A stretch of DNA of 44,674 nucleotides from Chloroflexota bacterium. GTDB lineage: Bacteria; Chloroflexota; Anaerolineae; Anaerolineales; VGOW01. Of the stretch, positions 29,688 through 44,674 are shown piece after piece. The stretch is taken from assembly GCA_016197225.1 (NCBI GenBank), contig JACPWC010000057.1, forward strand, positions 1 to 44,674. The letters are read 5' to 3'. The position numbers and the translations under genes were made by a program. The notes beneath the pieces are model-generated. The model was given only the letters and a program-made list of their open reading frames with translations, did not search any database and was not told the origin of the DNA. The stretch's first letter is position 1. The number at the start of each line of letters is the position of its first letter.

Positions 29688-30020
29688 ATGCAAACCACCC
29701 TCCGGCGCGAAGTCCATCAACTCCATGCTGAAATCTGCCAGGCGCTCTCCGACCCCAGCCGGATTCTGATTCTGTATGAGTTGCGCGACGGCCCGCGCAA
29801 CGTCAGTGAGTTGGCGGAAAGCTTGGGCCTGAGCCAGCCCACCGTATCGCGCCACCTGAAAGTCTTGCGTGATCGCCGGATGGCGCTGGCCCAACGCGAG
29901 GGAACGAACGTTTACTACACCCTGGCCGATGCGCGGGTGATCGAAGCCCTCAACCTTCTGCGCGAAGTGCTGGCCGGAATTTTGGAAGAGCGGACGGCGC
30001 TGGTTGAAGAATTGGGATAG
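29688..30020 (+). CDS. ArsR/SmtB-family repressor of the sulfur locus
   Basis: 110 residues from the ATG at 29688; the frame stays open upstream to 29601, but that extension (MMKSRGFEATMPASIRLF...) is not repressor-like. The winged helix reads ALSDPSRILILYELRDGPRN then VSELAESLGLSQPTVSRHLK. ArsR-type regulators head several sulfur-oxidation clusters and sense sulfane sulfur through a cysteine pair. Here only one Cys is present (in HAEICQAL), so the usual two-Cys switch cannot form within one chain. It precedes tusA and is separated from it by a terminator-like hairpin. Confidence 0.88.
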   Translation: MQTTLRREVHQLHAEICQALSDPSRILILYELRDGPRNVSELAESLGLSQPTVSRHLKVLRDRRMALAQREGTNVYYTLADARVIEALNLLREVLAGILEERTALVEELG

Positions 30021-30064
30021 CGCGTTTCTGGGCTTGTGAGTCCGAGACGCGCTTTTATTTTATT
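30020..30064 (+). terminator. Rho-independent terminator after the ArsR gene
   Basis: GCGCGTTTC (30020-30028) pairs with GAGACGCGC (30044-30052) with one T-G pair. An inner GGGCT/AGTCC stem closes most of the loop, and TTTTATTTTATT follows. It begins at the last base of the stop codon. It may end the regulator transcript, with tusA onward read from a promoter I cannot locate or by partial read-through. Confidence 0.75.
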
Positions 30065-30086
30065 GCTCCAGGAAAGGAAGACACTG

Positions 30087-30326
30087 ATGACAGCGCTACA
30101 AGAGGATAAACTTCTCGATTGCTCCGGGATGTTGTGCCCGGTTCCCGTCATCAAGACATCGAAAGCGATCAAAGAGATTCAGATCGGCCAGGTGCTCAAG
30201 ATGATCTCGACCGACCCCGGCGCGCCGCCAGACATGGAAGCCTGGGCCCGCCAGACCGGGAACGAATTGCTGGACTCACACCAGGAAGACAAGAAATACA
30301 TCTTCTACTTCCGGCGCATGAAGTAA
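30087..30326 (+). CDS. tusA: TusA-family sulfur carrier protein
   Basis: 79 residues from the ATG at 30087 behind AGGAAAGGAAG. The defining CPxP motif is C17-P-V-P in DCSGMLCPVPVIKTSKAI; a second Cys (C12) stands five residues earlier. The C-terminal half (ISTDPGAPPDMEAWARQTGN) is the usual beta-strand/helix of the fold. TusA carries a persulfide on the motif Cys and, next to dsrE and shdr genes, delivers sulfur to the sHdr system rather than to tRNA thiolation. It is the first structural gene of the sulfur locus. Confidence 0.95.
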   Translation: MTALQEDKLLDCSGMLCPVPVIKTSKAIKEIQIGQVLKMISTDPGAPPDMEAWARQTGNELLDSHQEDKKYIFYFRRMK

Positions 30327-30356
30327 CGTATCGCCTAAATGCCATAGGAGGCTTCA

Positions 30357-30878
30357 ATGTCTAAATCCGATCCGAATGCACCCAAACGCCTGGCGCTGAT
30401 TGCCAGCAAGGGCACGCTCGACTGGGCCTATCCGCCTTACATCCTCGCCAGCGCCGGGGCGGCCATGGGCTGGGATGTCGCTATTTTTCACACCTTCTAC
30501 GGCCTGACTCTGCTGTTGAAGGAGATCAAGGCTGAAGTGACGCCGCTGGGCAACCCGGCCATGCCAATGACCATGCCGTTTGGCCCCGAAGCCTTTCAAA
30601 AAATTGACTGGCCGATTCCAACGGCGATGATGGCTACTCCCGGCTTCAGCAGTCTCGCCACCGGCATGATGAAAAAACTGTTCAAAGATAAAGGCGTGGC
30701 CTCCGTCCCCGAAATGCGCGCCATGTGCGTGGAGGCCGGCGTCAACATGATCGCCTGCCAGATGACGATGAGCGTCTTTGGCTTCGAGAAGGACGACTTC
30801 ATTCCGGAATGTACCGTCGGCGGCGCGGGTATGTTCTTAGATTATGCCGCCGACGCCGACGTGCAACTGTTCATTTAG
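30357..30878 (+). CDS. DsrE-family sulfurtransferase (DsrE2/DsrE3-like)
   Basis: 173 residues behind a strong AGGAGG. The fold opens LALIASKGTLDWAYPPYILA and has Cys at 124, 134 and 152. C134 in MIACQMTMSVFG is at the place of the active Cys of DsrE2/DsrE3 proteins, followed by the family's VGGAGMFLDYAADADVQLFI end. Such proteins bind a persulfide and exchange it with TusA. No membrane helix is evident, favouring a DsrE3-like cytoplasmic form. Position between tusA and a second dsrE-type gene supports the role in sulfur relay to sHdr. Confidence 0.85.
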   Translation: MSKSDPNAPKRLALIASKGTLDWAYPPYILASAGAAMGWDVAIFHTFYGLTLLLKEIKAEVTPLGNPAMPMTMPFGPEAFQKIDWPIPTAMMATPGFSSLATGMMKKLFKDKGVASVPEMRAMCVEAGVNMIACQMTMSVFGFEKDDFIPECTVGGAGMFLDYAADADVQLFI

Positions 30879-30967
30879 TAACAGCCATTAGGCCAATAAC
30901 GAGCGAGGGTTGATCACGCTCCGCCTCGCGGAGACGAATTAATCTTGCCTGAAGCCGGAGGGCCGCT

Positions 30968-31351
30968 GTGGACGACGAGACTAAGAAAATCCTTTATGTG
31001 CAAACGCATGGCGTGGACATGCCTGAACGTTCAGCTACGCCTTTTTACCTGGCGGCGGCCGGGGCGGCCATGGACGCCGACGTGGGCATCTACTTTACGA
31101 TGAATGGCCCGACTCTCTTGCAGAAGGGCGTGCCGGAAACATTGGTCGTCCCCAAAAAAGGCGGCGGCGGACGTGAACTGGCTTACTTCATCAAACAGGC
31201 CCTCGACTGCGGCGTAACTTTATATGTCTGCCAGCCCTCACTCGATTTGCACGCGCTCAAATTGGATGACCTGATTGACGGCGTGAAGATGATCGGCGGC
31301 GCGGCCTTCAACGACATGGCGCTGAATGCGGATGCGGTGATTGCGTTCTGA
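30968..31351 (+). CDS. DsrE-family small sulfurtransferase
   Basis: 127 residues from a GTG preceded by GGAGG. It is a short alpha/beta DsrE-like fold (ILYVQTHGVDMPERSATPFY; MDADVGIYFTMNGPTLLQKG; VKMIGGAAFNDMALNADAVI). C81 and C88 lie in the region of the active Cys (ALDCGVTLYVCQPS); C88 before P-S is the best candidate. It probably acts with the preceding DsrE-type protein and TusA in passing sulfane sulfur to the sHdr complex. Confidence 0.83.
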   Translation: MDDETKKILYVQTHGVDMPERSATPFYLAAAGAAMDADVGIYFTMNGPTLLQKGVPETLVVPKKGGGGRELAYFIKQALDCGVTLYVCQPSLDLHALKLDDLIDGVKMIGGAAFNDMALNADAVIAF

Positions 31352-31404
31352 TTCTCCAATTCTCTAATCCTCAAAGAGATTGGAGAACTGGAGAATTGGA
31401 GAAT
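31351..31404. repeat. Inverted phrase hairpin, dsrE-shdrC1 spacer
   Basis: ATTCTCCAATTCTC (31351-31364) is the perfect reverse complement of GAGAATTGGAGAAT (31391-31404): a 14-bp stem starting at the last base of the stop codon. The 26-nt loop is made of the same words. No T-tract follows, and the arm ends 5 bases before the next ATG. Confidence 0.85.
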
Positions 31405-31409
31405 TGACA

Positions 31410-32099
31410 ATGGGACTCTTTGCCGACAAATACCCCGACGTTGCCTACAAAGAAAAACTGCGTCTGTGGGAAGAAGTGAAAGCCGACGTGCGCTTCCCGT
31501 CCGTGCTGTACGGGTGTTACGAGTGCGGCATCTGCGTGGCCGCCTGCCCCTCGGCCCGGTTCTACGACTTCTCGCCGCGCAAAATCGCCCAGGCGGCGGC
31601 GCGCGAGGACATCGAGTTGATCTACGAGCAGATGAATGACGACGTGTGGAACTGCTCGCAGTGCTTTTCGTGCAACCGTTGCCCGCGCCAGAACTCGCCC
31701 GGCGGGTTGATCACCGTTTTGCGAGAAGTGGCGGTGAAGAACGGACTCAAGTCGGCCAAGCAGGCCCTCGAAGGTTACTCGCGCATCATCTACAAGATCA
31801 TGGGCACTGGCACCCAGGTTTCGCCCGACATGCTCCAGCCCGACGCCTTTCCCGACTGGGGGCCGCAGGTGCGTGACGTGTCCGCCGAACTCGACGTATG
31901 GCGGCGGGCCTTGCCCCCCGAAACCTTGCACACCACTTCCACCGGCTGGCAGGTGGACGACAAGACCATCATCGAGCTTTACCTCATCTGGCACAACACC
32001 GGGGTGATGGACATGATCGCCGAAGTGGATGAGGGCCTGCATATGATCTTGAATGACGTGATGGAAGAAAAACTTGAAGAGGCAGGGTACGAAGTGTAG
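31410..32099 (+). CDS. shdrC1: sHdrC1, iron-sulfur subunit of the sulfur-oxidising heterodisulfide-reductase-like complex
   Basis: 229 residues from the ATG at 31410. The first 4Fe-4S site is the normal CxxCxxCxxxCP (C36, C39, C42, C46 in CYECGICVAACP). The second is CxxCxxCxxCP (C82, C85, C88, C91 in CSQCFSCNRCP), one residue shorter before the last Cys. The helical C-terminal part (about 110-229) is typical of HdrC. It should wire electrons between sHdrB1 and sHdrA. The gene order C1-B1-A-H is that of sulfur oxidisers, not of methanogens. Confidence 0.88.
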   Translation: MGLFADKYPDVAYKEKLRLWEEVKADVRFPSVLYGCYECGICVAACPSARFYDFSPRKIAQAAAREDIELIYEQMNDDVWNCSQCFSCNRCPRQNSPGGLITVLREVAVKNGLKSAKQALEGYSRIIYKIMGTGTQVSPDMLQPDAFPDWGPQVRDVSAELDVWRRALPPETLHTTSTGWQVDDKTIIELYLIWHNTGVMDMIAEVDEGLHMILNDVMEEKLEEAGYEV

Positions 32100-32103
32100 C
32101 GAA

Positions 32104-32137
32104 TGGCAGATAGTCATCAGCTATCAGCCATCTGCCA
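32104..32137. repeat. Inverted phrase hairpin, shdrC1-shdrB1 spacer
   Basis: TGGCAGAT (32104-32111) and ATCTGCCA (32130-32137) form an 8-bp stem four bases after the stop codon, with an inner GATAG/CTATC pair. The words are TCATCAGC and TATCAGCC. AGGAGG for the next gene follows directly. Confidence 0.75.
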
Positions 32138-32149
32138 CAGGAGGCGACT

Positions 32150-33355
32150 ATGACAGCCACAACCGGTTTTATCCCTTACGACGCCGTCAACACTAAGTCT
32201 TCGCGCAAGTTTGAGCGCGCCGCCGAATATGCGCCCGAAGATTTCCACAAGCACGTCTTCGAGTTGGAGGCAGAGGGCGAGTGGATCGTCCAGCGCGTGC
32301 CGGAGCCTTACGTCGAAGTGATGACGAAGTACGGGCGCACGAAGAAGATTCCGCTCGAACTGACCTGGCACCACAAGTCGTGCGGCCAGTGCGGCCATAT
32401 CCCCGGCTACTCGACGGCTATCTTCTGGCTGAATCGGAAACTGAACTTCAAATACATTGACCCGACCGACCAGACTTCCTGCACGGCGTGGAATTATTAC
32501 GCTTCGGCCACTTCCAACGCGGCGGCCCAGGCCGGCGTCGCCATGCGCAACTTCGCGGCGGCCTACGAGACCGGCTACTACCCGCTCATCCACTGCGGCA
32601 CGTCTTACGGCCACTACAAAGAAGTGCGCGAGGAGATGGTGCATCATCCCGAGATCCGGCACCAAGTGCGCGACGTGATGAAGAAACTCGGCAAGCCGCT
32701 CGTCATGCCGGAGGAAATCGTTCACTACTCCGAGTGGATCCACGCGGTCCGTGACCGCATCGCCGCTCTACAGACGCGCGATTTTTCCAGCATCGCCGTC
32801 ACTGTGCACCCGGCCTGCCATTATTACAAGCTGGTGCAGGAGGACGCCATCTACGACCCCGACATTTACGGAGGACAGCGCACAGCCACTGTCTCGGCGC
32901 TGATCGTTGCGTTGGGCGCGGAGGTGCGCGACTACTCGACCTGGTTCGACTGCTGTGGCTTCGGCTTCCGGCACATCCTCGTCCAGCGCGACTTCACCCG
33001 CTCCTTCGCCACCCGGCGCAAAATCGAAGTGATGAAGGAAGAAGCCAACCCCGATGTTGTCATCACACATGATACCGGTTGTGTGACCACACTCGACAAG
33101 AGCCAGTTCGTGGGCCAGGCGCACGGTCTCAACGTCGGCGTCCCCGTCATGTCCGACGCCCAGTTTGCGGCGCTGGCGATGGGCGCGCATCCTTACCGCG
33201 TCTGCCAACTGCACTGGCACTCCACCGATTACAAACCCTTGCTCGAAAAGATGAACATTGATCACGAAAAGGCCTGGGCGGAATTTCAGGAAGACTTGAA
33301 GAAGTTGAAGAGCGGCGAGAAGGAATATCTTACCTGGGAAGACGTTGACGCTTGA
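32150..33355 (+). CDS. shdrB1: sHdrB1, CCG-domain subunit of sHdr
   Basis: 401 residues, AGGAGG upstream. The C-terminal CCG half is clear: C223 (HPACHYY), C268-C269 (FDCCGFGF) and C311 (HDTGC) give C-x44-CC-x41-C. The N-terminal half has a divergent set (C78 and C81 in SCGQCGHIPG, C111 in TSCTAW, C149 in HCGTSYGHY) instead of a canonical CCG signature. HdrB proteins hold non-cubane 4Fe-4S clusters at the disulfide-reducing site; in sHdr this site is thought to handle sulfur bound to lipoyl groups. Length fits the family. Confidence 0.88.
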   Translation: MTATTGFIPYDAVNTKSSRKFERAAEYAPEDFHKHVFELEAEGEWIVQRVPEPYVEVMTKYGRTKKIPLELTWHHKSCGQCGHIPGYSTAIFWLNRKLNFKYIDPTDQTSCTAWNYYASATSNAAAQAGVAMRNFAAAYETGYYPLIHCGTSYGHYKEVREEMVHHPEIRHQVRDVMKKLGKPLVMPEEIVHYSEWIHAVRDRIAALQTRDFSSIAVTVHPACHYYKLVQEDAIYDPDIYGGQRTATVSALIVALGAEVRDYSTWFDCCGFGFRHILVQRDFTRSFATRRKIEVMKEEANPDVVITHDTGCVTTLDKSQFVGQAHGLNVGVPVMSDAQFAALAMGAHPYRVCQLHWHSTDYKPLLEKMNIDHEKAWAEFQEDLKKLKSGEKEYLTWEDVDA

Positions 33356-33361
33356 TAGTTA

Positions 33362-33426
33362 TCAGTGGACTGTGATCAGTAACCTGGAATTGCATTGACC
33401 ACTGACCCACTGTTCACTGATTACTG
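33362..33426. repeat. Imperfect inverted phrase, shdrB1-shdrA spacer
   Basis: The spacer is built of CAGTG/CACTG words: TCAGTGG (33362-33368) pairs with CCACTGA (33399-33405), and CAGTAA (33377-33382) with TTACTG (33421-33426). Closely related words recur in the spacer at 41951-41997. Confidence 0.6.
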
Positions 33427-33434
33427 GAGGTCAA

Positions 33435-34502: not shown

Positions 34503-34503
34503 C

Positions 34504-34584: not shown

Positions 34585-35388
34585 TTGTCCACAGGACAAG
34601 TAGTTGACACCGAAACCGCCCAGGAGTTCATGGCCCAGGCTCTCGAAAAGGTGGAGCGGGCTGAACTGGGCGATATTGTGGCCGAGCTTGAGAAGAAGAG
34701 CGCGCGCTTTCGATCTTTGCTGGCGCCAGAGGTCGTAACCGACCTCACCCGCGAGCAGTTGCGTTTCATTTTGCGCTCCGTCTTTGCTACACGCCGCAAA
34801 GCCGACGCCATTATTGACGTGATGGGCGTGGAGGGCTTGTGCAACTCGTTCGCCTACCTGCTCTACGACCCGGCCCCAGTGCAAAAACGTTTCCAGGGAT
34901 TTGTAGATTGCCTCTCCGGTTACTGGGGCGATGTGCGATTGGCCCGCAAGGCACTGCCCGGAAAAGAAGGCAAGGCCGACCTGCCCGAAAACGTCCTCTG
35001 TGACTTGGCTTCAGAGTTGTTGCACTTCACCGGCCCAGACGATCGCTGGCTTTGGACGCGCTGGATGTGGGATCCACGGCTGGGCACGGGCGCACTGCCG
35101 CTGGTGACGATGGAAGAGTACGACTTGCATGGGCGGGACGCGGGCGAGACGTACATGAAAGTCGGTGTGGGCGTTGCCTTTGTGCAGGCCACCGGCGAGG
35201 CCGCCGGGTTCGCCAACTTTGGCGTGAGCAAAAGCCCTTTTGGAATTGATGTTTTCCTCGCGTGCGTGTACGCCGTTTACATGTACACCACTCTGCGAAT
35301 ACGAATGACACAGGAATTCAACAAGGTTGTGCCGCAGTTGCCCGAACTTTCGCGGCGGCTGTTGGGTGTTTGGAAAACAGAGAATTAG
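34585..35388 (+). CDS. shdrH: sHdrH, conserved protein of the sHdr cluster
   Basis: 267 residues starting at TTG 34585, 8 bases after GGAG; no ATG fits better near the start. It occupies the place of the conserved protein always found after shdrA in sulfur oxidisers. The N-terminal part is helical (QEFMAQALEKVERAELGDIV; DIVAELEKKSARFRSL). The C-terminal half is richer in small and hydrophobic residues (GVGVAFVQATGEAAGFANFG). No iron-sulfur or nucleotide motif is visible, and no function is known. Identification rests mainly on gene order and size. Confidence 0.7.
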   Translation: MSTGQVVDTETAQEFMAQALEKVERAELGDIVAELEKKSARFRSLLAPEVVTDLTREQLRFILRSVFATRRKADAIIDVMGVEGLCNSFAYLLYDPAPVQKRFQGFVDCLSGYWGDVRLARKALPGKEGKADLPENVLCDLASELLHFTGPDDRWLWTRWMWDPRLGTGALPLVTMEEYDLHGRDAGETYMKVGVGVAFVQATGEAAGFANFGVSKSPFGIDVFLACVYAVYMYTTLRIRMTQEFNKVVPQLPELSRRLLGVWKTEN

Positions 35389-35436: not shown

Positions 35437-36747
35437 ATGGCTGTCGGCCTTGATAAAGTAAAACCCGAAAACATCAAAGAAGAAAAACACCTCGTCGTGC
35501 AGGGCATGGACATTTCCGGCCACTGGAACCGGATGTTCGAGCAGAGGGTGATCTGGGATTACGACGTTGAGCAGTTGGAAAAGGTCGCCGCCCTGCCCGG
35601 CGGCGAGTCGCTCAACTGGTGCTACGGGTGCGCCAAATGCACCGCCGTCTGCCCGGTGGACATCGTCGGCGACTACTCGCCGCGTAAGATTCACCGCAAG
35701 ACGCAGATGGGCATTGACCTGTTCAATTCCCCTGACCTCTGGCTTTGCACGACTTGCATGAACTGCCTGCGCGTGTGCCCCAAAGAAGTGAACATGATCC
35801 AGATAATGCCCGCCGTGCGCGAACAGGCGGGGCGGGAAGGCACGACCGTGCCGCCCGAACTGCAAAAGGCCTTCGAGGACACGGCCAAACACGGCAACCC
35901 GCTCGGCCAGCCGCAACGAAAACGGGCGGACTGGGTGAAGAAGGCGGGCGCCCCGGTGCCGATCATGAAAGACCTCAAGCGCCCGGTGGACATCCTGTGG
36001 TACGTCGGCTCCTATCCCTCTTATCATCCGCGTGGCATTGACGCCGCCTGCGCCGCCGCCCGCATCTTCAACGCTCTGGGCGTTGACTTCGGCATCCTCG
36101 GCCTAGAAGAGAAAGACGACGGCGACTCACAGAGGCTGGCGGGCGAGAAGGGCCTGTTCGAGATGCTGGCCGAGCAGAACATCGCCACCTTTGGCAAATA
36201 CGAATTCAACCGTATGGTGGTGACCGGCCCGCACGAGTTCAACGCCTTCAAGAATGAGTATCCGAAATATGGCGCGGATTTCAAAGTGTTGCATTACACG
36301 CGCTTCCTCGTCGAGCATCTCGACAAACTCAAGCTGATGTTGAAGAAGCCGCTCAACCCTTCGACAGGCTCAGGTCGCGGCCTGAAAGTGACCTTTCACG
36401 ATCCGTGCTACCTCGGGCGGCACAACGGCGAATACGACGCGCCGCGCGAACTATTGCGCGCCATCCCCGGTATTGAACTGGTGGAGATGGGCCGGTGCCG
36501 CGAGAACGGTTACTGTTGCGGCGGCGGCGGCGGCGGCATGTGGCTCGACTCGTTCACCAAAGAGCACACGACGATGCGCCTCTCCGAGCGCCGCGTCCGC
36601 GAAGCCGTCGAATACGGCGCAGACGTGCTGGCTGTGTGCTGTCCATTCGAAGTCTCGCGTTTTGAAGACGCCGCCAAGAGCACCGGCAACGACAAGTTGA
36701 TGGTGCGGGATATTCTGGAATTATTAGATGAATCCATGCGAGGGTAG
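35437..36747 (+). CDS. HdrC-HdrB fusion protein (sHdrB3 / sHdrC2B2 role)
   Basis: 436 residues. The N-terminal HdrC part binds two 4Fe-4S clusters: C62, C65, C68, C72 (CYGCAKCTAVCP) and C104, C107, C110, C114 (CTTCMNCLRVCP). The C-terminal part is one CCG domain: C324 (HDPCYLGR), C360-C361 (YCCGGGG) and C401-C402 (VCCPFE). In the common type I cluster the place is taken by separate hdrC2 and hdrB2 genes. A single fused protein followed by etfAB and a membrane oxidoreductase matches what I recall as the type II sHdr arrangement. Residues about 307-316 (NPSTGSGRG) are an insertion made of a repeat word, absent from the related domain at 38704-40755. Confidence 0.86.
   Translation: MAVGLDKVKPENIKEEKHLVVQGMDISGHWNRMFEQRVIWDYDVEQLEKVAALPGGESLNWCYGCAKCTAVCPVDIVGDYSPRKIHRKTQMGIDLFNSPDLWLCTTCMNCLRVCPKEVNMIQIMPAVREQAGREGTTVPPELQKAFEDTAKHGNPLGQPQRKRADWVKKAGAPVPIMKDLKRPVDILWYVGSYPSYHPRGIDAACAAARIFNALGVDFGILGLEEKDDGDSQRLAGEKGLFEMLAEQNIATFGKYEFNRMVVTGPHEFNAFKNEYPKYGADFKVLHYTRFLVEHLDKLKLMLKKPLNPSTGSGRGLKVTFHDPCYLGRHNGEYDAPRELLRAIPGIELVEMGRCRENGYCCGGGGGGMWLDSFTKEHTTMRLSERRVREAVEYGADVLAVCCPFEVSRFEDAAKSTGNDKLMVRDILELLDESMRG
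36356..36374 (+). repeat. Repeat word inserted in frame in the HdrC-HdrB fusion
   Basis: ACCCTTCGACAGGCTCAGG codes NPSTGSG just before the conserved VTFHDPCYLGR segment. A 17/19 match (39500-39518) lies in the same reading phase inside the membrane oxidoreductase gene. The paralogous domain there passes from KKLDYR straight to VTFHDPCYLGR, so this segment is an insertion. Confidence 0.75.
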
Positions 36748-36790
36748 TTGGGTGGTTTGGCGGTTGGGTTGTTGGGGCGAACCACCCAAC
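36747..36790. repeat. Inverted phrase hairpin, shdrB3-etfB spacer
   Basis: GTTGGGTGGTT (36747-36757) pairs perfectly with AACCACCCAAC (36780-36790), starting at the last base of the stop codon. The words GGTTGGGTTGTTGGGG and ACCTAACAACCTAACCCC extend it imperfectly to 36808. Confidence 0.85.
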
Positions 36791-36831
36791 CACCTAACAA
36801 CCTAACCCCATTATTTCAGTGGAGCGATAAA

Positions 36832-37599
36832 GTGAATATCGTCGTCCCCATCAAACAAATCCCCAATCTCACCGACGAACTGGAAATCAACGGCGACGGA
36901 ACCGGCCTCGATCACGACGCGCTTCAGTACGTGCTGAATGAGTTTGACGAGCACGCGATTGAGGAGGCAGTGCTGGCCAAAGAGAGCGCGGGCGGCGCGG
37001 TGACCGTCGTCGGCGTGGACACGACCGGCGAACTCGACGGGGCGCTTCACACCGCCCTGGCCAAAGGCGCAGACAAGGCCGCCAAGATCACCGGCGACTT
37101 CCCGCGCGGCACCGACTCCCACACCCAGGCCAGGCTTCTCGCCGAAGCCATCAAAGACATGTCGCCCGACATCGTGCTGACCGGCGTGCAGGCCGCTGAC
37201 GACCGCGACGGGCAAATTGGCCCGATGATCGCGGCCCACTTGGGGATGCCCTACGTTGGCGTTGTGACCGGCGTCACCGTGTCAGGCGGCAAAGCTGTGG
37301 TTCACAAGGAATATGCAGGCGGCGTCATGGCCGAGTTTGAAGTGTCACTGCCGATGGTCGTCGGCGTGCAGGCCGCGCACCAGCCGCCGCGTTACGCCCC
37401 GGTGAGCAAAATTCGCCAGATTGCCAAGACGGCGAAGATTGACGAGATCGCCGGCGGCGAGGTTGCAGGCGCGGGTTCGACCGTCCGCCGCATGTTCAAA
37501 CCCGAAGCCGCCGGGCATGCCGAGATGTGGGATGGCTCACCCGAAGAAGTGGCGGAGAAGATTGTGGCGATGATCAAAGAGAAGGGGCTTTTGAAATAA
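36832..37599 (+). CDS. etfB: Electron transfer flavoprotein beta subunit
   Basis: 255 residues from GTG 36832, preceded by GGAG. The sequence begins NIVVPIKQIPNLTDELEING and carries the beta-subunit pattern GVQAADDRDGQIGPMIAAHL then GMPYVGVVTGV (AMP/FAD-side loop). With EtfA it forms a soluble flavoprotein that takes electrons one at a time. Placed directly after shdr genes and followed by etfA and a quinone-side oxidoreductase, it most likely drains electrons from sHdr rather than from fatty-acid oxidation. Confidence 0.94.
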   Translation: MNIVVPIKQIPNLTDELEINGDGTGLDHDALQYVLNEFDEHAIEEAVLAKESAGGAVTVVGVDTTGELDGALHTALAKGADKAAKITGDFPRGTDSHTQARLLAEAIKDMSPDIVLTGVQAADDRDGQIGPMIAAHLGMPYVGVVTGVTVSGGKAVVHKEYAGGVMAEFEVSLPMVVGVQAAHQPPRYAPVSKIRQIAKTAKIDEIAGGEVAGAGSTVRRMFKPEAAGHAEMWDGSPEEVAEKIVAMIKEKGLLK

Positions 37600-37672: not shown

Positions 37673-38635
37673 ATGGCAAACGACATTTTTATTCTCGCAG
37701 AACATCTCAACGGCAAGCTGGCCGACATCACTTTCGAGATGACGGGCAAGGCCAAAGAGTTGGCCGCCGCCTTTGGCGGCCAGGCCGTCGCCGTGTTGCT
37801 GGGCAGTGGCGCAAAGTCGCTGGCCGAGTCCATCGGCGCCGACACGGTTTTGTATGTGGACGATTCCACGCTGGCCGAATTCAATCCTGAAGCCTACAGC
37901 CGCGTATTGGCCGCGATGATCAAAGAGCGCGGCCCGCGAGTGGTGATGATGGGCAACACCTCGGTGGGCATGGATTTGGGAGCAGGACTGTCGGTGATGG
38001 CCGGCCTGCCGCTCATCGCCTACGTCAACGGTTTGGCCGCCGACGGCGGCATGTTCGTCGCCACCTCGCAAATTTACGGCGGCAAGATTCAGGCCGAGGC
38101 CGTGCCTGATGGCGAAGCCTGCATCGTCTCCTGCCTCGCAGGCGCGTTCCCTGCGGACGCGGGTCGCGGCTCCGCTCCGGTTGAGCAAATCGCCTCCCCG
38201 GTTCCGCTCGACGACTTGAAAGTGAAGTTCGTCAAACTCATCCAGCCCGAGGGCGGCGACGTGGACATCACCCAGCAACCGATCCTGGTCTCGATTGGGC
38301 GCGGCATCGGCGGGCAGGAGAACATCGAACTGGCGCAGGAACTCGCTGAGGCGCTGGGCGCGGCGGTGTCGGCTTCCCGCCCGATCACCGACGCCGGCTG
38401 GTTGCCGAAGACGCGGCAGGTCGGCAAGTCCGGCCTCACGGTGAAGCCCAAAGTCTATCTTGCATTCGGCATCTCCGGTGCGCCCGAACACCTCGAAGGC
38501 ATGCGCGGCGCAGAATTGATCATCGCCGTCAACACCGATCCCAAAGCGCCCATCTTCGACGTGGCCCACTACGGCGCGACCTGCGACATGCTGGACTTGC
38601 TTCCGGCGTTGACCGAGAAAGTAAAAGGCGGGTGA
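37673..38635 (+). CDS. etfA: Electron transfer flavoprotein alpha subunit
   Basis: 320 residues, normal length. The C-terminal FAD domain is diagnostic: SIGRGIGGQENIELAQELAE, ASRPITDAGWLPKTRQVGKS, VKPKVYLAFGISGAPEHLEG and INTDPKAPIFDVAHYG-type sequence (here AVNTDPKAPIFDVAHYGATC). The N-terminal domain is less conserved. It follows etfB across a hairpin spacer; the upstream ribosome-binding site is weak. It docks on the membrane oxidoreductase encoded next. Confidence 0.94.
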   Translation: MANDIFILAEHLNGKLADITFEMTGKAKELAAAFGGQAVAVLLGSGAKSLAESIGADTVLYVDDSTLAEFNPEAYSRVLAAMIKERGPRVVMMGNTSVGMDLGAGLSVMAGLPLIAYVNGLAADGGMFVATSQIYGGKIQAEAVPDGEACIVSCLAGAFPADAGRGSAPVEQIASPVPLDDLKVKFVKLIQPEGGDVDITQQPILVSIGRGIGGQENIELAQELAEALGAAVSASRPITDAGWLPKTRQVGKSGLTVKPKVYLAFGISGAPEHLEGMRGAELIIAVNTDPKAPIFDVAHYGATCDMLDLLPALTEKVKGG

Positions 38636-38691
38636 CGTTTGTCGGTTGACGTTTGATTTATGCCGCGTCAGCCGTCAAACGACAAACGTCA
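38633..38691. repeat. Inverted phrase hairpin, etfA-EMO spacer
   Basis: TGACGTTTGTCG (38633-38644) and CGACAAACGTCA (38680-38691) pair perfectly over 12 bp. After one mismatch TTGACG (38646-38651) pairs with CGTCAA (38673-38678). The first arm starts with the TGA stop codon itself. Confidence 0.9.
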
Positions 38692-38703
38692 GTTAAAAAC
38701 GTC

Positions 38704-40755
38704 ATGCTGACTCTTGTCGAAAAGATCATCTTCTTCCTCATGGCCGCCGTCTTCGGCGGTTTCACTGCCTGGGGCTTCTACAACATCTACCGCATCGTGC
38801 GGCGCGGGCGTCCAATCTCCAATTCTCCACGCGAAGCGTCTAATCTCCAATCTTTCATCCCTCAAGCTATCAAAGCCTTGCTTGAAGTCGGCCTGCAAAA
38901 GCCGATCTACAAATCGCGCCCTATCCTCACCACCTTTCACGCCCTCATCTTCTTCGGCTTCTCGTATTACTTCCTGGTCAACGTCAACGACGTGTTGGAA
39001 GGCTTCATCTCCGACTACTCCACCGCCGAAATTTCCGCCTTCCCCCTCGGCCTGTTGAACCTGGCCGGCGATTTGTTGAGCATCGGCGTTTTGGTCGGCG
39101 TCGTCGCCTTCCTCGTCCGCCGTTTCATTGCCAAAGACAAGCGGCTCGACTACAACAAGGATGTATTGTTGTACGCCCCGGTCAAAGCGGGCGGTATCAA
39201 ACGCGACTCGCTCATCGTCGGCGGCTTCATCCTGTTTCACGTCGGCTCGCGTTTCATGGGGCAGACCTTCCGCCTGGCCGAGATGCAGGTCTTCAATCCA
39301 ATGCAGCCGTTTGCCAGCGCCCTGTCGCTCGCCCTGCGCGGCTGGCCCGACTACACGGCGGCGATTCACACGACGTGGTGGCTGGCCATCGGCCTCATCG
39401 TCGTCTTCCTTCCCTACTTCATCATCAGCAAGCACATTCACATCATGGTCGCGCCGGTCAATCTGGCATTGGCAAAACAGGGTGAGCGTGGCCATCTCGA
39501 CCCTTCGGCAAGCTCAGGGTTGCCCGGCGCGGGCGCATTGAGTGATCTCGCCTGGCCGCGCCTGCTCGACGCTTACGCCTGCATCATGTGCAATCGCTGT
39601 CAGGACGTTTGCCCGGCGCACAATTCACTGCGACCTCTGAGTCCCTCGGCGCTGGAGATCAACAAACGCTACTGGCTCAACGCTAATTTCACCGCCTTCG
39701 CCGGGGGTGCCGCCTCGCCGCCCCTCACCGAATTCGCCATCAGCCCTGACGCAGTGTGGGCCTGCACCACCTGTTATGCCTGCGTGCGCGTCTGCCCGGT
39801 CGGCAACGAGCCAATGGCCGACATCATTGACATCCGCCGCCGGTTGGTGAACGACGGCGCGGAACTGGACAGCGGCGTGCAGTCCACGCTGGAGAAGATC
39901 GGCAAGACCGGCAACTCGTTCGGGCAGGCGGCCCGCAACCGGGCCAAGTGGACGCAGACCGGACTCGATTTCAAGATCAAAGATGTTCGCAAGGAGCAGG
40001 CCGAGTATTTGTGGTTCGTCGGCGACTATGCTTCGTTTGATGCGCGTGCCCAGGAGATCACCCGCACCGTGGCCCGCGTGCTGACCGGCGCTGGCGTGGA
40101 CTTCGGCATCCTGTACGAGGCCGAGAAGAATTCCGGCAACGACGTACGGCGGGTGGGCGAGGAAGGCCTCTTCGAGCAGTTGGCCGAGCAGAACATTGCG
40201 GCCATGAGCAAAGCCAAGTTCGAGCGCGTCATCACCACCGACCCCCACACCCTCAACGCGCTCAAGAACGAGTACCCGGACTACGGCGGCAAGTGGGAGA
40301 CGATTCACTACACCCGCTTGCTGGCGCAACTGATCGAGTCAGGCAAGATCAAACTCAATAAGAAACTCGACTATCGGGTGACCTTCCACGATCCGTGTTA
40401 CCTCGGGCGCTACAACAAAGGCTTCAACCCGCCCCGCGCCCTGATTCAGGCGACGGGCTGTGATTTCGTGGAGATGCAACGCAACAAAGAGAACTCGTAC
40501 TGCTGTGGCGCGGGCGGCGGCCAAATCTGGATGGGGACGACGCCCGAAGGCGAGCGCCCGGCGGAGAACCGCATCCGCGAAGCCCTGGCCGCCCTCGGCC
40601 ACACGGCCAACGGCGCAAGCGGCAAGAAGCTCCTCTTCATCGTCGCCTGCCCGAAGGACGTGGTGATGTATACCGACGCGGTGAAGACGACGGGTAACGA
40701 GGGTAAAATTGAAGTGCGGGATGTGATTCAGTTGGTGGCGGAGGCGATGGGGTGA
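38704..40755 (+). CDS. Membrane-bound ETF:menaquinone oxidoreductase, HdrD/EtfD-like
   Basis: 683 residues from the ATG at 38704. The N-terminal part is a cytochrome-b/NarI-like membrane domain with about five helices (near 5-30, 78-100, 115-138, 175-195, 218-240). Two 4Fe-4S sites follow: C293, C296, C299, C303 (CIMCNRCQDVCP) and C354, C357, C360, C364 (CTTCYACVRVCP). A C-terminal CCG domain uses C565 (HDPCYLGR), C600-C601 (YCCGAGGG) and C649 (VACPKD). This is the plan of EtfD-type proteins that move electrons from EtfAB to menaquinone, called EMO in sulfur-oxidation work as I recall. Two repeat words are built into it at 38812-38853 and 39500-39519. No good ribosome-binding site is visible. 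Confidence 0.88.
   Translation: MLTLVEKIIFFLMAAVFGGFTAWGFYNIYRIVRRGRPISNSPREASNLQSFIPQAIKALLEVGLQKPIYKSRPILTTFHALIFFGFSYYFLVNVNDVLEGFISDYSTAEISAFPLGLLNLAGDLLSIGVLVGVVAFLVRRFIAKDKRLDYNKDVLLYAPVKAGGIKRDSLIVGGFILFHVGSRFMGQTFRLAEMQVFNPMQPFASALSLALRGWPDYTAAIHTTWWLAIGLIVVFLPYFIISKHIHIMVAPVNLALAKQGERGHLDPSASSGLPGAGALSDLAWPRLLDAYACIMCNRCQDVCPAHNSLRPLSPSALEINKRYWLNANFTAFAGGAASPPLTEFAISPDAVWACTTCYACVRVCPVGNEPMADIIDIRRRLVNDGAELDSGVQSTLEKIGKTGNSFGQAARNRAKWTQTGLDFKIKDVRKEQAEYLWFVGDYASFDARAQEITRTVARVLTGAGVDFGILYEAEKNSGNDVRRVGEEGLFEQLAEQNIAAMSKAKFERVITTDPHTLNALKNEYPDYGGKWETIHYTRLLAQLIESGKIKLNKKLDYRVTFHDPCYLGRYNKGFNPPRALIQATGCDFVEMQRNKENSYCCGAGGGQIWMGTTPEGERPAENRIREALAALGHTANGASGKKLLFIVACPKDVVMYTDAVKTTGNEGKIEVRDVIQLVAEAMG
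38812..38853 (+). repeat. Repeat words inserted in frame in the EMO gene
   Basis: The stretch is composed of AATCTCCAATTCTCC and TCTAATCTCCAATCT, the same words as the spacer hairpins at 31351 and 35387. It codes PISNSPREASNLQS in the loop after the first membrane helix. The 15-mer TCTAATCTCCAATCT (38839-38853) recurs exactly at 44500-44514 inside the ligase gene, in the same reading phase (SNLQS). Confidence 0.8.
39500..39519 (+). repeat. Second repeat word inserted in frame in the EMO gene
   Basis: ACCCTTCGGCAAGCTCAGGG codes DPSASSG in the linker between the last membrane helix and the first iron-sulfur site. Its first 19 bases match the word at 36356-36374 at 17 positions and are read in the same phase. 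Confidence 0.75.
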
Positions 40756-40770
40756 GGATGGCTAGGTTGC

Positions 40771-41307
40771 ATGTTAAACGCTCCAATGAACAAAACCAAG
40801 AGCAAAACTAGAATCTCGCCCAACTCCGTCTCCCTTGCGGGCGAATTCGCGGCGTTATCACGCCTTGCTCTATGGGGCTACGATGCCAACATGACCCTGG
40901 GCCGAACGAAAAACGTGGACATTTTGGTCTCGAACCCACGCACAAACCAGTTTTATCAACTTGAAGTGAAGACCAATCTGGATAGTAGAAAGCGACCGCC
41001 TGTTTCAAAATTGTTCGGACGCTTTGTGAGTGGCTGGATTATGAACAAGAAACACGAATCCATTTCAAGGCCAGAGCTCTGGTATTGTTTCGTGACATTC
41101 CGATTGGAATCAAAGATCGCGAGGTACTTCATCGTGCCCAGCGCCGTCGTCGCGCGATATGTTCTGGCGCAACATCGCTTGTGGCTGGAAATGAAAGGCA
41201 AAGACAATCCGATGCGTCTTTTTCGGATTGGATTTGCGGAAGAGAAATATAGAATCTCCACTCCAACCGCAGAACGGTATGAAGACAATTGGGAATTCAA
41301 ACAGTAG
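40771..41307 (+). CDS. Putative PD-(D/E)XK nuclease-like protein
   Basis: 178 residues from ATG 40771, or 173 from ATG 40786. The N-terminal SVSLAGEFAALSRLALWGYD and the following DILVSNPRTNQFYQLEVKTN give the order E...D-x(n)-E-x-K of a PD-(D/E)XK fold (D about residue 51, E about 68, K about 70), as in small endonuclease-like or Holliday-resolvase-like families. No target can be named. The gene is more AT-rich than its neighbours and interrupts the sulfur locus without an obvious link to it, so it may be a later insertion. Confidence 0.55.
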   Translation: MLNAPMNKTKSKTRISPNSVSLAGEFAALSRLALWGYDANMTLGRTKNVDILVSNPRTNQFYQLEVKTNLDSRKRPPVSKLFGRFVSGWIMNKKHESISRPELWYCFVTFRLESKIARYFIVPSAVVARYVLAQHRLWLEMKGKDNPMRLFRIGFAEEKYRISTPTAERYEDNWEFKQ

Positions 41308-41361
41308 CTTATGCAACCTGGCCACCGCCAGCAGGCAAATATGTTCAACGGGTGTCTCGGT

Positions 41362-41470
41362 TAGTAGTCAGCCAATGCTAAATTGATGAGTGCCTGATCC
41401 GCCGCAGTTGTACTGCGGCGCGGGCGGCAGTGCAACTGCCACCCATCAAAACAGGCTTGGCGGACTACTA
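41362..41470. repeat. REP/MITE-like palindromic element, copy 2
   Basis: A 109-bp block is bounded by TAGTAGTCAGCCAA (41362-41375) and its near-perfect inverse TTGGCGGACTACTA (41457-41470; 13 of 14 pair). Inside are two hairpins: CGCCGCAGT/ACTGCGGCG (41400-41420) and GGGCGGCAGT/ACTGCCACCC (41422-41444). The second matches the core at 29503-29525. No transposase is encoded, so it would depend on one elsewhere. Confidence 0.7.
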
Positions 41471-41500
41471 GTCCCGCTGCCGCCACTAAAATCGACCCTT

Positions 41501-41956
41501 ATGCCTCAAGGCCTCACTGACCTCTCTCTCGCCCTCGCCATGCGACTGCGCGACATGGCGCGGATGCTTGATCGCCTCGACCGGCTGGAGTCCGGCACCG
41601 GCGAGTGGCTGGCCGCGCAAGGTGACGGCGCGCTGCAAGAGGCCGCTGCCGACATGACCCTGCGCGCCCTGCGCGCCGCAACCGACCCGACGAACTTCGC
41701 TGTTCTTGCGTTTCTCTCGGCGCATACGTCCGCGCCCATTGCCGAACTCGAAACGGCCACCGGTCTGGGGCGGCTAGCCCTCACCGAACGGGTGAATGAC
41801 CTCGTGCAGGTTGGCCTGGCCGGGCGGAATATTGACACCGATCAGGTGCAAGGCACGGCGGCGGGCGCGGCCCTCGTCGGCCTCATCCAAAGCATCTCTG
41901 AGGCCACAGCGACGAAGTTGGGAGAGGTGTTGAAACCGGTTACTAGTGAACAGTGA
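41501..41956 (+). CDS. Small winged-helix-like hypothetical protein
   Basis: 151 residues from ATG 41501; an upstream extension to 41390 lies inside the palindromic element and is not credible. The N-terminal third is one long amphipathic helix (LALAMRLRDMARMLDRLDRL). The middle looks like an ArsR/MarR-type winged helix (FAVLAFLSAHTSAPIAELET then ATGLGRLALTERVNDLVQVG). A helical tail follows (SISEATATKLGEVLKPV). It could be a local regulator, or a scaffold with the fold only. I do not recognise the family. It lies between the electron-transfer and lipoyl-protein parts of the locus. Confidence 0.6.
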   Translation: MPQGLTDLSLALAMRLRDMARMLDRLDRLESGTGEWLAAQGDGALQEAAADMTLRALRAATDPTNFAVLAFLSAHTSAPIAELETATGLGRLALTERVNDLVQVGLAGRNIDTDQVQGTAAGAALVGLIQSISEATATKLGEVLKPVTSEQ

Positions 41957-41997
41957 TCAGTGATCAGTGATCAGTAAACACTGTTTACTGATCACTG
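41951..41997. repeat. Inverted phrase hairpin with heptamer repeat
   Basis: CAGTGATCAGTAAAC (41965-41979) and GTTTACTGATCACTG (41983-41997) form a perfect 15-bp stem with an ACT loop. The left side contains the heptamer TGATCAG three times in tandem (41954-41974), of which the right arm has only one, so the unit seems to have grown by tandem duplication. It begins inside the stop codon. Confidence 0.9.
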
Positions 41998-42017
41998 TTC
42001 ACTGATAACTTTTTACA

Positions 42018-42308
42018 ATGAAGTGTCCTCACTGTGACTTCGCCGACACCCGCATGAAGCTCCACCGCCACCTGGCCGAGGCGCATTTGGATTTGGTGGC
42101 GACCGAGCACGACGAGGAGACGGGGAAGATGAAATATATCGTCGCCTGCCCGGTGTGCGGCTTGAAATACCAGCACGCCGTCAAGCCGCGCTACAAAGAC
42201 CCGCGCTTCCTCGAAGAGTTCAAAAGCGAGATTGCGCTGGTGGCGTTTGATCAATTGTTGTATCACCTGACGGAGAAGCATCCTGAGACTGGAGAAGCAG
42301 AGAATTAG
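42018..42308 (+). CDS. Small protein with two C2H2-type zinc-binding motifs
   Basis: 96 residues. Two Cys2-His2 patterns are visible: C3-x2-C6-x11-H18-x4-H23 (CPHCDFADTRMKLHRHLAEA then H) and C44-x2-C47 with H83-x4-H88 (CPVCGLKY ... YHLTEKH). The first is like a short classical zinc finger, the second has a long insert. I do not know a named family. It sits directly before three lipoyl-carrier genes, so a role in their maturation, in metal handling or in control of the locus is possible but unproven. Confidence 0.7.
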   Translation: MKCPHCDFADTRMKLHRHLAEAHLDLVATEHDEETGKMKYIVACPVCGLKYQHAVKPRYKDPRFLEEFKSEIALVAFDQLLYHLTEKHPETGEAEN

Positions 42309-42334
42309 AGAATTCTCTACTCCTCCAATTCTCT
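42299..42334. repeat. Inverted phrase hairpin, zinc-protein-lbpA1 spacer
   Basis: AGAGAATT (42299-42306) pairs with AATTCTCT (42327-42334). TAGAGAATTCTCTA (42306-42319) is a 14-bp perfect palindrome that contains the TAG stop codon. Words match those at 31351 and 35387. Confidence 0.8.
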
Positions 42335-42351
42335 ATTTCACAGAGGCAATC

Positions 42352-42792
42352 ATGGCGATCTGTAACAACTGCAACATCCCCGACGACCTCTACTATTGGG
42401 TAGAGAAACACACCTGGTGCCGGCGCGAAGCCGATGGAACCGTCGTCGTTGGCATCACCGACGTGGCCCAATTTCTCGCCAAGTCCATCATCTCGGCCAC
42501 GGCGAAAGAGGCGGGCAAGCCGGTGAAGAAGGGCAAGAGCGCGGGCACGGTGGAGAGCGGCAAGTGGGTGGGGCCGGTCACCGCGCCCGTCAACGGCGCC
42601 ATCACCGAAGTCAACGCCGCACTTAAAGCCAGGCCGGGCCTGCTCAACTCTGATCCTTATGGCGAAGGCTGGTTTGTCAAAATCAAGCCCGACAACTGGG
42701 AGGCGGACTCGGCTGATCTGGTCACAGGTGCAACAGGCATTGCGGCTTATCAGAAGTTTTTGGACGAGCAGGGGATAGACTGTCTCAAATGA
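42352..42792 (+). CDS. lbpA: Lipoate-binding protein LbpA, first copy (GcvH-like)
   Basis: 146 residues behind AGAGG. The single lipoyl domain has the modified Lys at K71 in GTVESGKWVGPVTAPVNGAI, matching the GcvH pattern ESVK. The end NSDPYGEGWFVKIKPDNW is the usual GcvH C-terminus. The N-terminus carries a C4-x2-C7 pair (AICNNCNIP) and C23, not typical of glycine-cleavage GcvH. In sHdr organisms LbpA binds the lipoyl group on which sulfur is oxidised. No glycine decarboxylase genes are near, which favours LbpA over GcvH. Confidence 0.9.
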   Translation: MAICNNCNIPDDLYYWVEKHTWCRREADGTVVVGITDVAQFLAKSIISATAKEAGKPVKKGKSAGTVESGKWVGPVTAPVNGAITEVNAALKARPGLLNSDPYGEGWFVKIKPDNWEADSADLVTGATGIAAYQKFLDEQGIDCLK

Positions 42793-42847
42793 ACAATGAA
42801 CAATGACACAATGAACAACGTGCGCTTCTCATTGTTCATTGTTCATT
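42788..42847. repeat. Inverted phrase hairpin, lbpA1-lbpA2 spacer
   Basis: AATGAACAATGAACAATGA (42788-42806) and its exact reverse complement (42829-42847) form a 19-bp perfect stem with a 22-nt loop. The TGA stop codon is inside the first arm. The heptamer AATGAAC/GTTCATT recurs, with another copy at 42852-42862. Confidence 0.93.
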
Positions 42848-42867
42848 CCCTCATTGTTCATTAACCA

Positions 42868-43329
42868 ATGACTGTTTACTACGGTTGCGACATTCCCGAA
42901 GACCTTTACTTCGACCTTGAGCGAGACGTGTGGATTCGGTTCGAAGCTGATCAGGCGGTGCTGGGGATGACCGACATCGCCCAGACGCGGGGCGGCAAGC
43001 TGGTCAACATTGCCTTCAAGAAGCCGGGCAAAGTCGTTTTGCAAGGCAAGAGCGCGGCCACCATTGAGTCGGCCAAATGGGTGGGGCCGTTTCCCATGCC
43101 GTTCAGCGGCGAGATCGTCGAAACGAACGAGGCCGGTTTCAAGCGCGACATTTTGCTGGCCAACAAAGACCCTTACGGCGCGGGTTGGTTGGTGAAGGTG
43201 CGCTCGGCCAATCTTGAAGCCGAACGCGTTCACCTCCTCACCGGCGCGGCGGCGGTGGAAGCATACAAGAAGAAGATAGAAGAATTGCAGGTGAAATGTT
43301 TTCGTTGCATTGACGAAACAGAAATTTGA
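42868..43329 (+). CDS. lbpA: Lipoate-binding protein LbpA, second copy (GcvH-like)
   Basis: 153 residues. The lipoyl Lys is K70 in ATIESAKWVGPFPMPFSGEI, and the C-terminal NKDPYGAGWLVKVRSANLEA matches the family. It shares the TVYYGCDIPEDLYFDLERDV start with copy 1 (both have Cys at position 7) but adds a C-terminal CxxC pair (C144, C147 in KCFRCI). That pair could bind metal or exchange persulfide; this is speculation. It follows copy 1 across a long hairpin and precedes copy 3 by 12 bases. Confidence 0.9.
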   Translation: MTVYYGCDIPEDLYFDLERDVWIRFEADQAVLGMTDIAQTRGGKLVNIAFKKPGKVVLQGKSAATIESAKWVGPFPMPFSGEIVETNEAGFKRDILLANKDPYGAGWLVKVRSANLEAERVHLLTGAAAVEAYKKKIEELQVKCFRCIDETEI

Positions 43330-43341
43330 ATCGGAGACCTT

Positions 43342-43782
43342 ATGCCTACGAACGGTCATTATTCTTTTCCGCCCGAACTTTATTACGACCGCGCCACTCA
43401 CGTTTGGGTGCGGCCTGACGGCGAAGGGGTCACCATCGGCCTTGATGCGCTCGGCCTCGAGTCGCTCGGCGACATGGCTTACCTCTCACTGCAAGCCGTC
43501 GGCCTCCCGGCGCGGCGCGGCGAGACCCTCGGCAGTCTGGAGGCGGCAAAGATGGTGGGCGATCTGATCGCGCCCGTCAGCGGCGTCATCACTGCGCGCA
43601 ACGAAGCTGTTCTGCACGATCCCAGCCTGATCAACCGCGATCCTTACGGCGCAGGCTGGATCGTCCAACTCGCGCCTTCGGACTGGGAACGTGACTCTGT
43701 CGAACTCGTTCACGGCGCGGAGTTGAAGCTCTGGGTCGAGGCGGAAATTGAGCGATACCGGGCGCAGGGCTGGATTGGTTAG
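43342..43782 (+). CDS. lbpA: Lipoate-binding protein LbpA, third copy (GcvH-like)
   Basis: 146 residues, GGAGA upstream. The lipoyl Lys is K70 in GSLEAAKMVGDLIAPVSGVI, and NRDPYGAGWIVQLAPSDWER closes the domain. Unlike copies 1 and 2 it contains no Cys, and its motif (LEAAKMVGD) is closer to ordinary GcvH. The ligase gene starts 4 bases after its stop, so this copy is most tightly linked to the ligase. The three copies may serve different partners. Confidence 0.9.
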   Translation: MPTNGHYSFPPELYYDRATHVWVRPDGEGVTIGLDALGLESLGDMAYLSLQAVGLPARRGETLGSLEAAKMVGDLIAPVSGVITARNEAVLHDPSLINRDPYGAGWIVQLAPSDWERDSVELVHGAELKLWVEAEIERYRAQGWIG

Positions 43783-43785
43783 CAG

Positions 43786-44674
43786 ATGATGAACTGGCGA
43801 CTCATCACTGACGACGGTGCAACCGCCTCTTTCGGCCTCGCCGCCGACGAGTGCCTCGCGGCGCGAGTCGGCGCGAGCGAGAGCGAGCCGACTCTGCGGC
43901 TGTACACCTATCAATCTCATTGCGCCCTCGTCGGGCGTTTTCAAAATCTCGATAACGAAGTGTATCGCGAGTATTGCGAGGCCAATGGCATCGCCCTCAA
44001 CCGCCGCCCCACCGGCGGCGGCGCGATTATCATGGGCGCCGATCAACTTGGCGTGGCGCTGACCATTCCGGGAGCCGGCGATGATTCGTACAGCCGCGCC
44101 CGCGAACTCATGGCCCAGTTTTCGGCAGGCGTGGTTAAGGGGTTGCAGTCGCTCGGTGTCGCCGCCTCGTTCCGGCGCAAGAACGACATCGAAGTCAACG
44201 GGCGCAAGATCGTCGGGCTGGGCATCTACCGCGCGCCGCGAGGCGGCCTGCTCTTTCACGCCTCCCTGCTCGTCGGCCTCGACATCCCGCTCATGTTGCG
44301 CGTCCTCAAAACGCCGTTTGAGAAAATCTCGGACAAAGAAATCGCCACCGTTGCCGACCGGGTGACGACTGTGCGCCGCGAGATCGGGCGCGAGATTGCG
44401 TTGAACGAAGTCCGGGCGCGAATCGCCGACGGCTACGCCGCCGCCTTCGGTGTCTCGCTCCACGCCGGCGGTTTCACCGCCGACGAATGCCGCGCAATCT
44501 CTAATCTCCAATCTCTTAAGTATGACACCGTCGAGTGGGTAAATCAGACCACCGCCGTGCCAGACGCGCTCGGCTCGGCCAAACTCAAAACGTCCGGCGG
44601 CCTGCTCGACGCGCGCGTGACGCTGGCCGGCAACACGATCAAAGCCGCCTTTATCGGCGGCGACTTCTTTGCCG
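43786..44674 (+). CDS. Lipoate-protein ligase, partial at the window edge
   Basis: At least 296 residues from ATG 43786 (a second ATG follows directly), open at the right edge. RRPTGGGAIIMGADQLGVAL is the lipoate/lipoyl-AMP binding motif. RRKNDIEVNGRKIVGLGIYR holds the catalytic Lys of LplA-type ligases. After about 245 a second part (YDTVEWVNQTTAV; LGSAKLKTSGGLLDARVTLA) resembles the accessory LplB domain, here fused as in LplA(AB)-type enzymes. It should attach lipoate or octanoate to the three LbpA proteins. Between the two domains (44495-44519) lies a repeat word coding ISNLQS. Confidence 0.9.
   Translation, partial: MMNWRLITDDGATASFGLAADECLAARVGASESEPTLRLYTYQSHCALVGRFQNLDNEVYREYCEANGIALNRRPTGGGAIIMGADQLGVALTIPGAGDDSYSRARELMAQFSAGVVKGLQSLGVAASFRRKNDIEVNGRKIVGLGIYRAPRGGLLFHASLLVGLDIPLMLRVLKTPFEKISDKEIATVADRVTTVRREIGREIALNEVRARIADGYAAAFGVSLHAGGFTADECRAISNLQSLKYDTVEWVNQTTAVPDALGSAKLKTSGGLLDARVTLAGNTIKAAFIGGDFFA
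44495..44519 (+). repeat. Repeat word inserted in frame in the ligase gene
   Basis: CAATCTCTAATCTCCAATCT and its tail repeat the words of the spacer hairpins. The 15-mer TCTAATCTCCAATCT (44500-44514) is identical to 38839-38853 and is read in the same phase (SNLQS), exactly between the catalytic and LplB-like domains. Confidence 0.75.

Follow-up and report, generated by a model that had tools for sequence, protein, structure and literature searches.

A probable type II sHdr-LbpA sulfur-oxidation cluster in a Chloroflexota bacterium, with a cysteine-free LbpA that probably belongs to a lipoylation cassette

Introduction

Contig JACPWC010000057.1 of a Chloroflexota bacterium (assembly GCA_016197225.1), of which the first 44,674 nucleotides were analyzed as one stretch (the window), carries a run of genes for a sulfur-oxidizing, heterodisulfide reductase-like (sHdr) system followed by three genes for the lipoyl carrier LbpA. 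The locus raises the question of what such a cluster does and what its third carrier is for. Taken as one joint reading, it is very likely that a Chloroflexota lineage here carries a type II sHdr-LbpA cluster for sulfur oxidation and that LbpA3 is the carrier of a lipoylation cassette. The analysis is based on sequence, with the genome searched by named families.

Identity of the cluster

All genes named in a preliminary description of the window, from arsR to a lipoate ligase, correspond to + strand open reading frames between 29688 and 44674 and stand in the order given there. Pfam and NCBIfam matches support TusA, DsrE2, DsrE, HdrC, HdrB, HdrA, the HdrC-HdrB fusion, EtfB and EtfA as well as the iron-sulfur (FeS) reductase, the three GCV_H proteins and the lipoate ligase, while sHdrH and three small open reading frames (orfX, orfY and orfZ) match no family of these databases above cut-off. 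The locus had been called complete, and its genes are indeed present, but the window stops inside the ligase gene, and the contig (108,674 bases) continues with lipS1, lipS2, a second ligase and molybdoenzyme genes.

The published definition of type II places shdrC1B1AHB3 and etfAB in a single cluster (PMC11582611), and the locus is assigned to this type, as had been suggested, because shdrC1, shdrB1, shdrA, shdrH and the fused shdrB3 share one syntenic cluster with etfAB. The functional cysteines show little or no variation when up to 83 homologues are aligned: C13 and C18 of TusA, C134 of DsrE2 and C88 of DsrE are invariant, and both 4Fe-4S motifs of HdrC1 (eight Cys) and of HdrB3 are conserved together with the CCG cysteines of HdrB1, HdrB3 and Emo. 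The Emo protein has the features of an EtfD-type reductase, with about four hydrophobic membrane segments, two of which contain the invariant H96 and H263, two 4Fe-4S motifs, a CCG domain and a gene adjoining etfBA.

The sHdrA protein (355 aa) is of the short sulfur-oxidizer type, and its best PDB match over nearly the full length (residues 6-352, E 1.4e-83) is 6TJR (349 aa), known as the sHdrA of Hyphomicrobium denitrificans; the strong match to methanogen HdrA is restricted to one region. A methanogen-like HdrA, which the preliminary description had said would count against its interpretation, is thus not what is found. An Hdr for electron transfer with no tie to sulfur oxidation, whether of the methanogen, lactate/glycolate or another type, would account for HdrB3 and Emo, whose domains are common to TfrB, LdhH, DsrK and TmcB, but it is highly improbable in view of the near full-length 6TJR match and the presence of sHdrH, LbpA, TusA and DsrE alike.

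A genome scan with sHdrH as query gave 80 related loci. Loci of Chloroflexota and Actinomycetota repeat the order tusA-dsrE2-dsrE-C1-B1-A-H-B3-etfB-etfA-emo-orfY-orfZ-lbpA1-lbpA2-lplA; it is seen with an additional lbpA in Armatimonadota, and also in further phyla, so that it is not due to chance; a lack of relatives sharing the order, the other outcome that had been named as adverse, is not observed. Among these loci arsR is present, reversed or missing. The shdrH gene was found in 5/5 same-genus genomes searched, including the present one, and searches of plasmids for sHdrH and LipS1 gave no match.

The locus is of an already known kind, because such systems are described in three papers, two of which already contain the three carriers that had been thought to go beyond the known arrangement. 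The Group III clusters of Cao 2018 combine EtfBA with two or three LbpA (PMC6067878), Islam 2019 describes in Thermomicrobium roseum a 19-gene cluster with three lbpA whose expression rose by an average of 45-fold when nutrients were limiting (PMC6776052), and a paper of 2026 reports both Hdr-like genes and lipoate-binding proteins from Chloroflexaceae (PMC13384644). Type II sHdr-LbpA systems (PMC11582611; Group III, PMC6067878) share with the locus shdrC1B1AHB3 and etfAB, two or three lbpA, sulfur-transfer genes and a ligase, but here lbpA3-lplA1-lipS1-lipS2-lplA2 lie between lbpA2 and a Soe-like molybdoenzyme, and orfY-orfZ follow emo. The T. roseum cluster (trd_0160-0142, compared by description; PMC6776052) is likewise from Chloroflexota and shares hdrABC, etfAB, tusA, dsrE1/2 and three lbpA, whereas the T. 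roseum relative of the molybdoenzyme is on a plasmid and the gene here stands beside the sHdr cluster.

In the proposed mechanism, TusA and the two DsrE-type proteins would deliver persulfide sulfur, sHdrC1-B1-A-H-B3 with lipoylated LbpA1 and LbpA2 would oxidize it to sulfite, and the electrons would exit via EtfAB and the Emo membrane reductase to quinone. The linked molybdoenzyme, with its fused FeS-NrfD anchor, would probably oxidize the sulfite further. We infer the substrates, direction and product, as well as every function of LbpA3 and LplA2, from sequence. The likely sulfur oxidation and the electron exit through EtfAB and a membrane reductase proposed earlier are supported on this basis, as is membership in Chloroflexota.

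Two classes of LbpA carrier

The lipoyl-attachment lysine is present in all three carriers. An N-terminal and a C-terminal cysteine are the hallmark of LbpA (Cao 2018, PMC6067878), and LbpA1 and LbpA2 have both; LbpA3 lacks them and contains no cysteine at all. The same division is found among 114 carriers, of which 75 have both cysteines and 35 neither, the remaining four being truncated, odd or the GcvH of the genome. The 35 cysteine-free carriers make up one side of a single branch (one change against a mean of 30 after shuffling), and the lipoyl lysine is followed by W in 75/75 cysteine-bearing carriers and by M, F, H or Y in 34/35 cysteine-free ones. Gene neighborhood separates the classes as well. 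Cysteine-free carrier genes adjoin lplA1, lipS1 or lipS2 in 31 of 34 testable cases, the other three ending the available stretch, in contrast to 0/73 cysteine-bearing ones (Fisher p 8e-24, relatedness ignored).

LbpA3 is probably a lipoate-assembly carrier rather than a third sulfur carrier, with LbpA1 and LbpA2 serving sulfur oxidation. The preliminary description had made no distinction among the three carriers and taken the ligase to load all of them, which is not supported for a cysteine-free LbpA3 that groups with lplA1/lipS1/lipS2 and has a second ligase downstream. An ordinary GcvH was also considered for LbpA3 and rejected, as a better, separate GcvH match lies on contig C46 of the genome. 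The open literature (main texts; PMC11094781 not covered) yielded no account of a bacterial LbpA class without cysteine. Cao 2018 called it unexplained why some sulfur oxidizers have two LbpA (PMC6067878); the split between cysteine-bearing carriers and cysteine-free carriers tied to lipoate synthesis offers, for the third carrier, a specific answer that can be tested, and counts of 'lbpA' genes may mix two different things.

Two further patterns occur among the related loci. LbpA1 of family f11 (L114, L140, L151, L152) has the N-terminal but no C-terminal cysteine. The Chloroflexota loci L148 and L149 (genomes G181 and G228) carry three cysteine-bearing LbpA, a trio that differs from that of the window, together with a native-type lplA2 and no LipS1 match in the genome.

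It is quite possible, if short of probable, that LbpA3 is instead a third working sHdr carrier, with LplA1 loading all three and LplA2 a redundant ligase. The lipoyl lysine shared by the three proteins and the position of lbpA3 immediately behind lbpA1 and lbpA2 are consistent with this, and the LipS-linked ligase of H. denitrificans loads a sulfur-oxidation LbpA (PMC10332631). However, both hallmark cysteines are missing in every lineage sampled, the carrier stays with lplA1/lipS even where the cassette is on another contig, and the two genomes with three cysteine-bearing LbpA have no LipS1 match.

The lipoylation cassette

As the carrier of a lipoylation cassette, LbpA3 would belong to a five-gene unit, lbpA3-lplA1-lipS1-lipS2-lplA2, that is probably separate from the sHdr relay and probably replaced the native lplA2 in this genus. 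The cassette and the sHdr locus are on different contigs in three genomes (G039, G117, G294), where the adjoining carrier is again cysteine-free. The same-genus genome G002 (92% complete) has the order lbpA1-lbpA2-native lplA2-FeS/NrfD-molybdoenzyme and no LipS1 match, and in G004 the cassette is in place. LplA1 and LplA2 form separate groups (support 100), and the LplA2 encoded here groups with an Acidobacteriota protein of the same five-gene arrangement, not with the LplA2 of the nearest relatives. LipS1 exceeds its family cut-off (NF053742, 235.8 bits versus 230). The sLpl(AB)-LipS1/LipS2 assembly (PMC10332631) shares with the cassette LipS1 over the NCBIfam cut-off, a LipS2-like protein and a linked ligase, but the cassette adds a second distinct ligase and the cysteine-free carrier.

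Distribution of the cassette is uneven. HdrB1 is present in 23 of 350 Chloroflexota genomes and a strong LipS1 match in eight, seven of the latter with HdrB1. A strict rule assigning a LipS cassette to all type II sHdr genomes was rejected, LipS1 being sparse among HdrB1-bearing Chloroflexota. LipA is present in 10/10 genomes checked, and genomes without LipS1 therefore have another lipoyl synthase.

A dedicated relay is conceivable but doubtful. LplA1 with LipS1/LipS2 would build lipoate on LbpA3 and LplA2 would move the lipoyl group to LbpA1 and LbpA2, while in genomes without LipS it would draw on the canonical GcvH; LbpA3 would then represent an assembly-carrier family spread with the cassette over about nine phylum-level lineages. 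The lipoyl relay of Bacillus subtilis (LipM-GcvH-LipL) would be the model for such a transfer, but LplA2, which may instead be a separate ligase, resembles ligases, which are also its PDB matches, and lacks a conserved LipL-like cysteine. The Cys near its lysine motif was rejected as a LipL-type catalytic residue; other LplA2 proteins do not conserve it, so the sequences give no evidence of a LipL mechanism.

Several observations weigh against the combined assignment of a type II sulfur-oxidation cluster and a cassette carrier. The branch that parts the cysteine-free carriers is weakly supported (SH-aLRT 75), and most HdrB1-bearing Chloroflexota sampled have no LipS1 match. The second LipS protein scores below its curated cut-off (NF053743, 203.8 versus 270 bits) and is called LipS2-like for this reason, despite matching the whole profile beside lipS1. 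SoxB and AprA are below cut-off in the genome, where sulfur-feeding enzymes were not searched exhaustively. Since the LipS-linked ligase of H. denitrificans acts directly on LbpA2 (PMC10332631), a separate LbpA3 is in principle not needed, and a general requirement for a lipoyl relay becomes less likely.

Molybdoenzyme and metabolic setting

In several phyla, the genes for the fused FeS-NrfD protein and the molybdoenzyme adjoin sHdr loci. The molybdoenzyme shares 63% identity with a relative on the T. roseum plasmid and 59% with another on pRHL3 of R. jostii RHA1, the latter beside TusA, DsrE2 and MBL-fold genes. We infer from this gene association a Soe-type sulfite dehydrogenase. SoeABC shares the large molybdoenzyme, the NrfD-type anchor and sulfur-oxidation gene neighbors, whereas here FeS and NrfD are fused and the likeness is one of gene association. 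The association ties type II sHdr to a probable sulfite-oxidizing complex in Chloroflexota and Actinomycetota.

Oxidation of thiols to disulfides, rather than of sulfane sulfur to sulfite, has been proposed for T. roseum (PMC6776052), and the lack of SoxB or AprA above cut-off would fit it. For the present system this is unlikely, since sulfane sulfur and sulfite are what TusA, DsrE2 and the conserved adjoining Soe-like molybdoenzyme suggest. A Sox or Apr pathway was rejected for want of a genome match above cut-off. The genome carries a haem-copper oxidase. A phototrophic setting was rejected as well, with no PufL/M in the genome, though two relatives (L007, L009) have magnesium-chelatase-like genes, recognized by eye, near the sHdr locus.

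Regulators and small genes

Upstream of the cluster, a sensor histidine kinase and a response regulator (23615-25982) are possible regulators of it. A homologous pair stands beside the sHdr locus in L007, L008, L009, L014, L025, L080 and L084, and divergently in L114/L151. The ArsR protein has a single Cys (HAEIC), kept in most relatives, instead of the cysteine pair of sHdrR (Cys50/Cys116; PMC12423496); many shdr-linked ArsR proteins are without the pair (PMC12423496).

The orfX gene is probably outside the system, having no homologue among the related loci and being absent between emo and orfY in G004. Its product has no family match and contains a VDILV...LEVKT motif reminiscent of PD-(D/E)XK nucleases. 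The orfY product is conserved and free of cysteine, and its structure model (pLDDT 92) has an ArsR/MarR-like fold near CzrA, HlyU, BigR and SqrR, with Z of about 12-13 from residue 42. The orfZ product is a putative zinc-binding protein in which C3, H16, H18, H23, C44, C47 and H83 are invariant in 24 sequences and C6 nearly so; a fold search with its model (pLDDT 88) gave no clear match.

Features of the region

Table 1. Genes of the sHdr-LbpA locus and its surroundings on the contig.
Feature	Position	Strand	Remarks
Sensor histidine kinase, NarX/LiaS-type	23615..25327	+	NCBIfam; possible regulator, membership uncertain
NarL-type response regulator	25311..25982	+	adjoins kinase; possible regulator, membership uncertain
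arsR regulator	29688..30020	+	start plausible (MQTTLRREV...)
tusA, sulfur carrier	30087..30326	+	Pfam TusA 79 bits
dsrE2, sulfurtransferase	30357..30878	+	NF047629 199 bits, slightly below cut-off 210
dsrE-like sulfurtransferase	30968..31351	+	Pfam DsrE 63 bits
shdrC1	31410..32099	+	family match, 4Fe-4S Cys
shdrB1	32150..33355	+	family match, CCG cysteines
shdrA, 355 aa	33435..34502	+	best PDB match 6TJR
shdrH	34585..35388	+	no Pfam or NCBIfam match; query for related-locus scan
shdrB3, fused HdrC-HdrB	35437..36747	+	two 4Fe-4S motifs and CCG domain
etfB	36832..37599	+	start uncertain, 36748 to 36832
etfA	37673..38635	+	family match
emo, EtfD-like membrane FeS reductase	38653..40755	+	PDB match 9ojn
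orfX	40771..41307	+	between emo and orfY
orfY, winged-helix protein	about 41501..41956	+	homologues in 22 loci
orfZ, putative zinc-binding protein	42018..42308	+	homologues in 27 loci
lbpA1, cysteine-bearing lipoyl carrier	42352..42792	+	
lbpA2, cysteine-bearing lipoyl carrier	42868..43329	+	
lbpA3, cysteine-free GcvH-like carrier	43342..43782	+	probable first gene of lipoylation cassette
lplA1, lipS-linked lipoate ligase	43786..44913	+	window stops inside at 44674
lipS1	44876-45805		beyond window, same contig
lipS2-like gene	45806-46888		beyond window, same contig
lplA2, second ligase	46936-47940		beyond window, same contig
FabL-like SDR reductase	47913-48701		beyond window, same contig
Fused FeS-NrfD	48714-50261		beyond window, same contig
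Molybdoenzyme, 989 aa	50258-53227		beyond window, same contig
TorD-like protein	53224-54129		beyond window, same contig

The region from 752 to 23533 is mainly devoted to sugar use, with enzymes of the GH94, GH1 and exo-glucosaminidase-like kinds, genes for ABC transport of sugars and a LacI-type regulator. Short in-frame stretches of similar DNA occur in hdrB3 (CCCTTCGACAGGCTCAGG, about 36355-36384) and in emo (CCCTTCGGCAAGCTCAGG, about 39496-39525) and look like a small repeat inserted into the genes.

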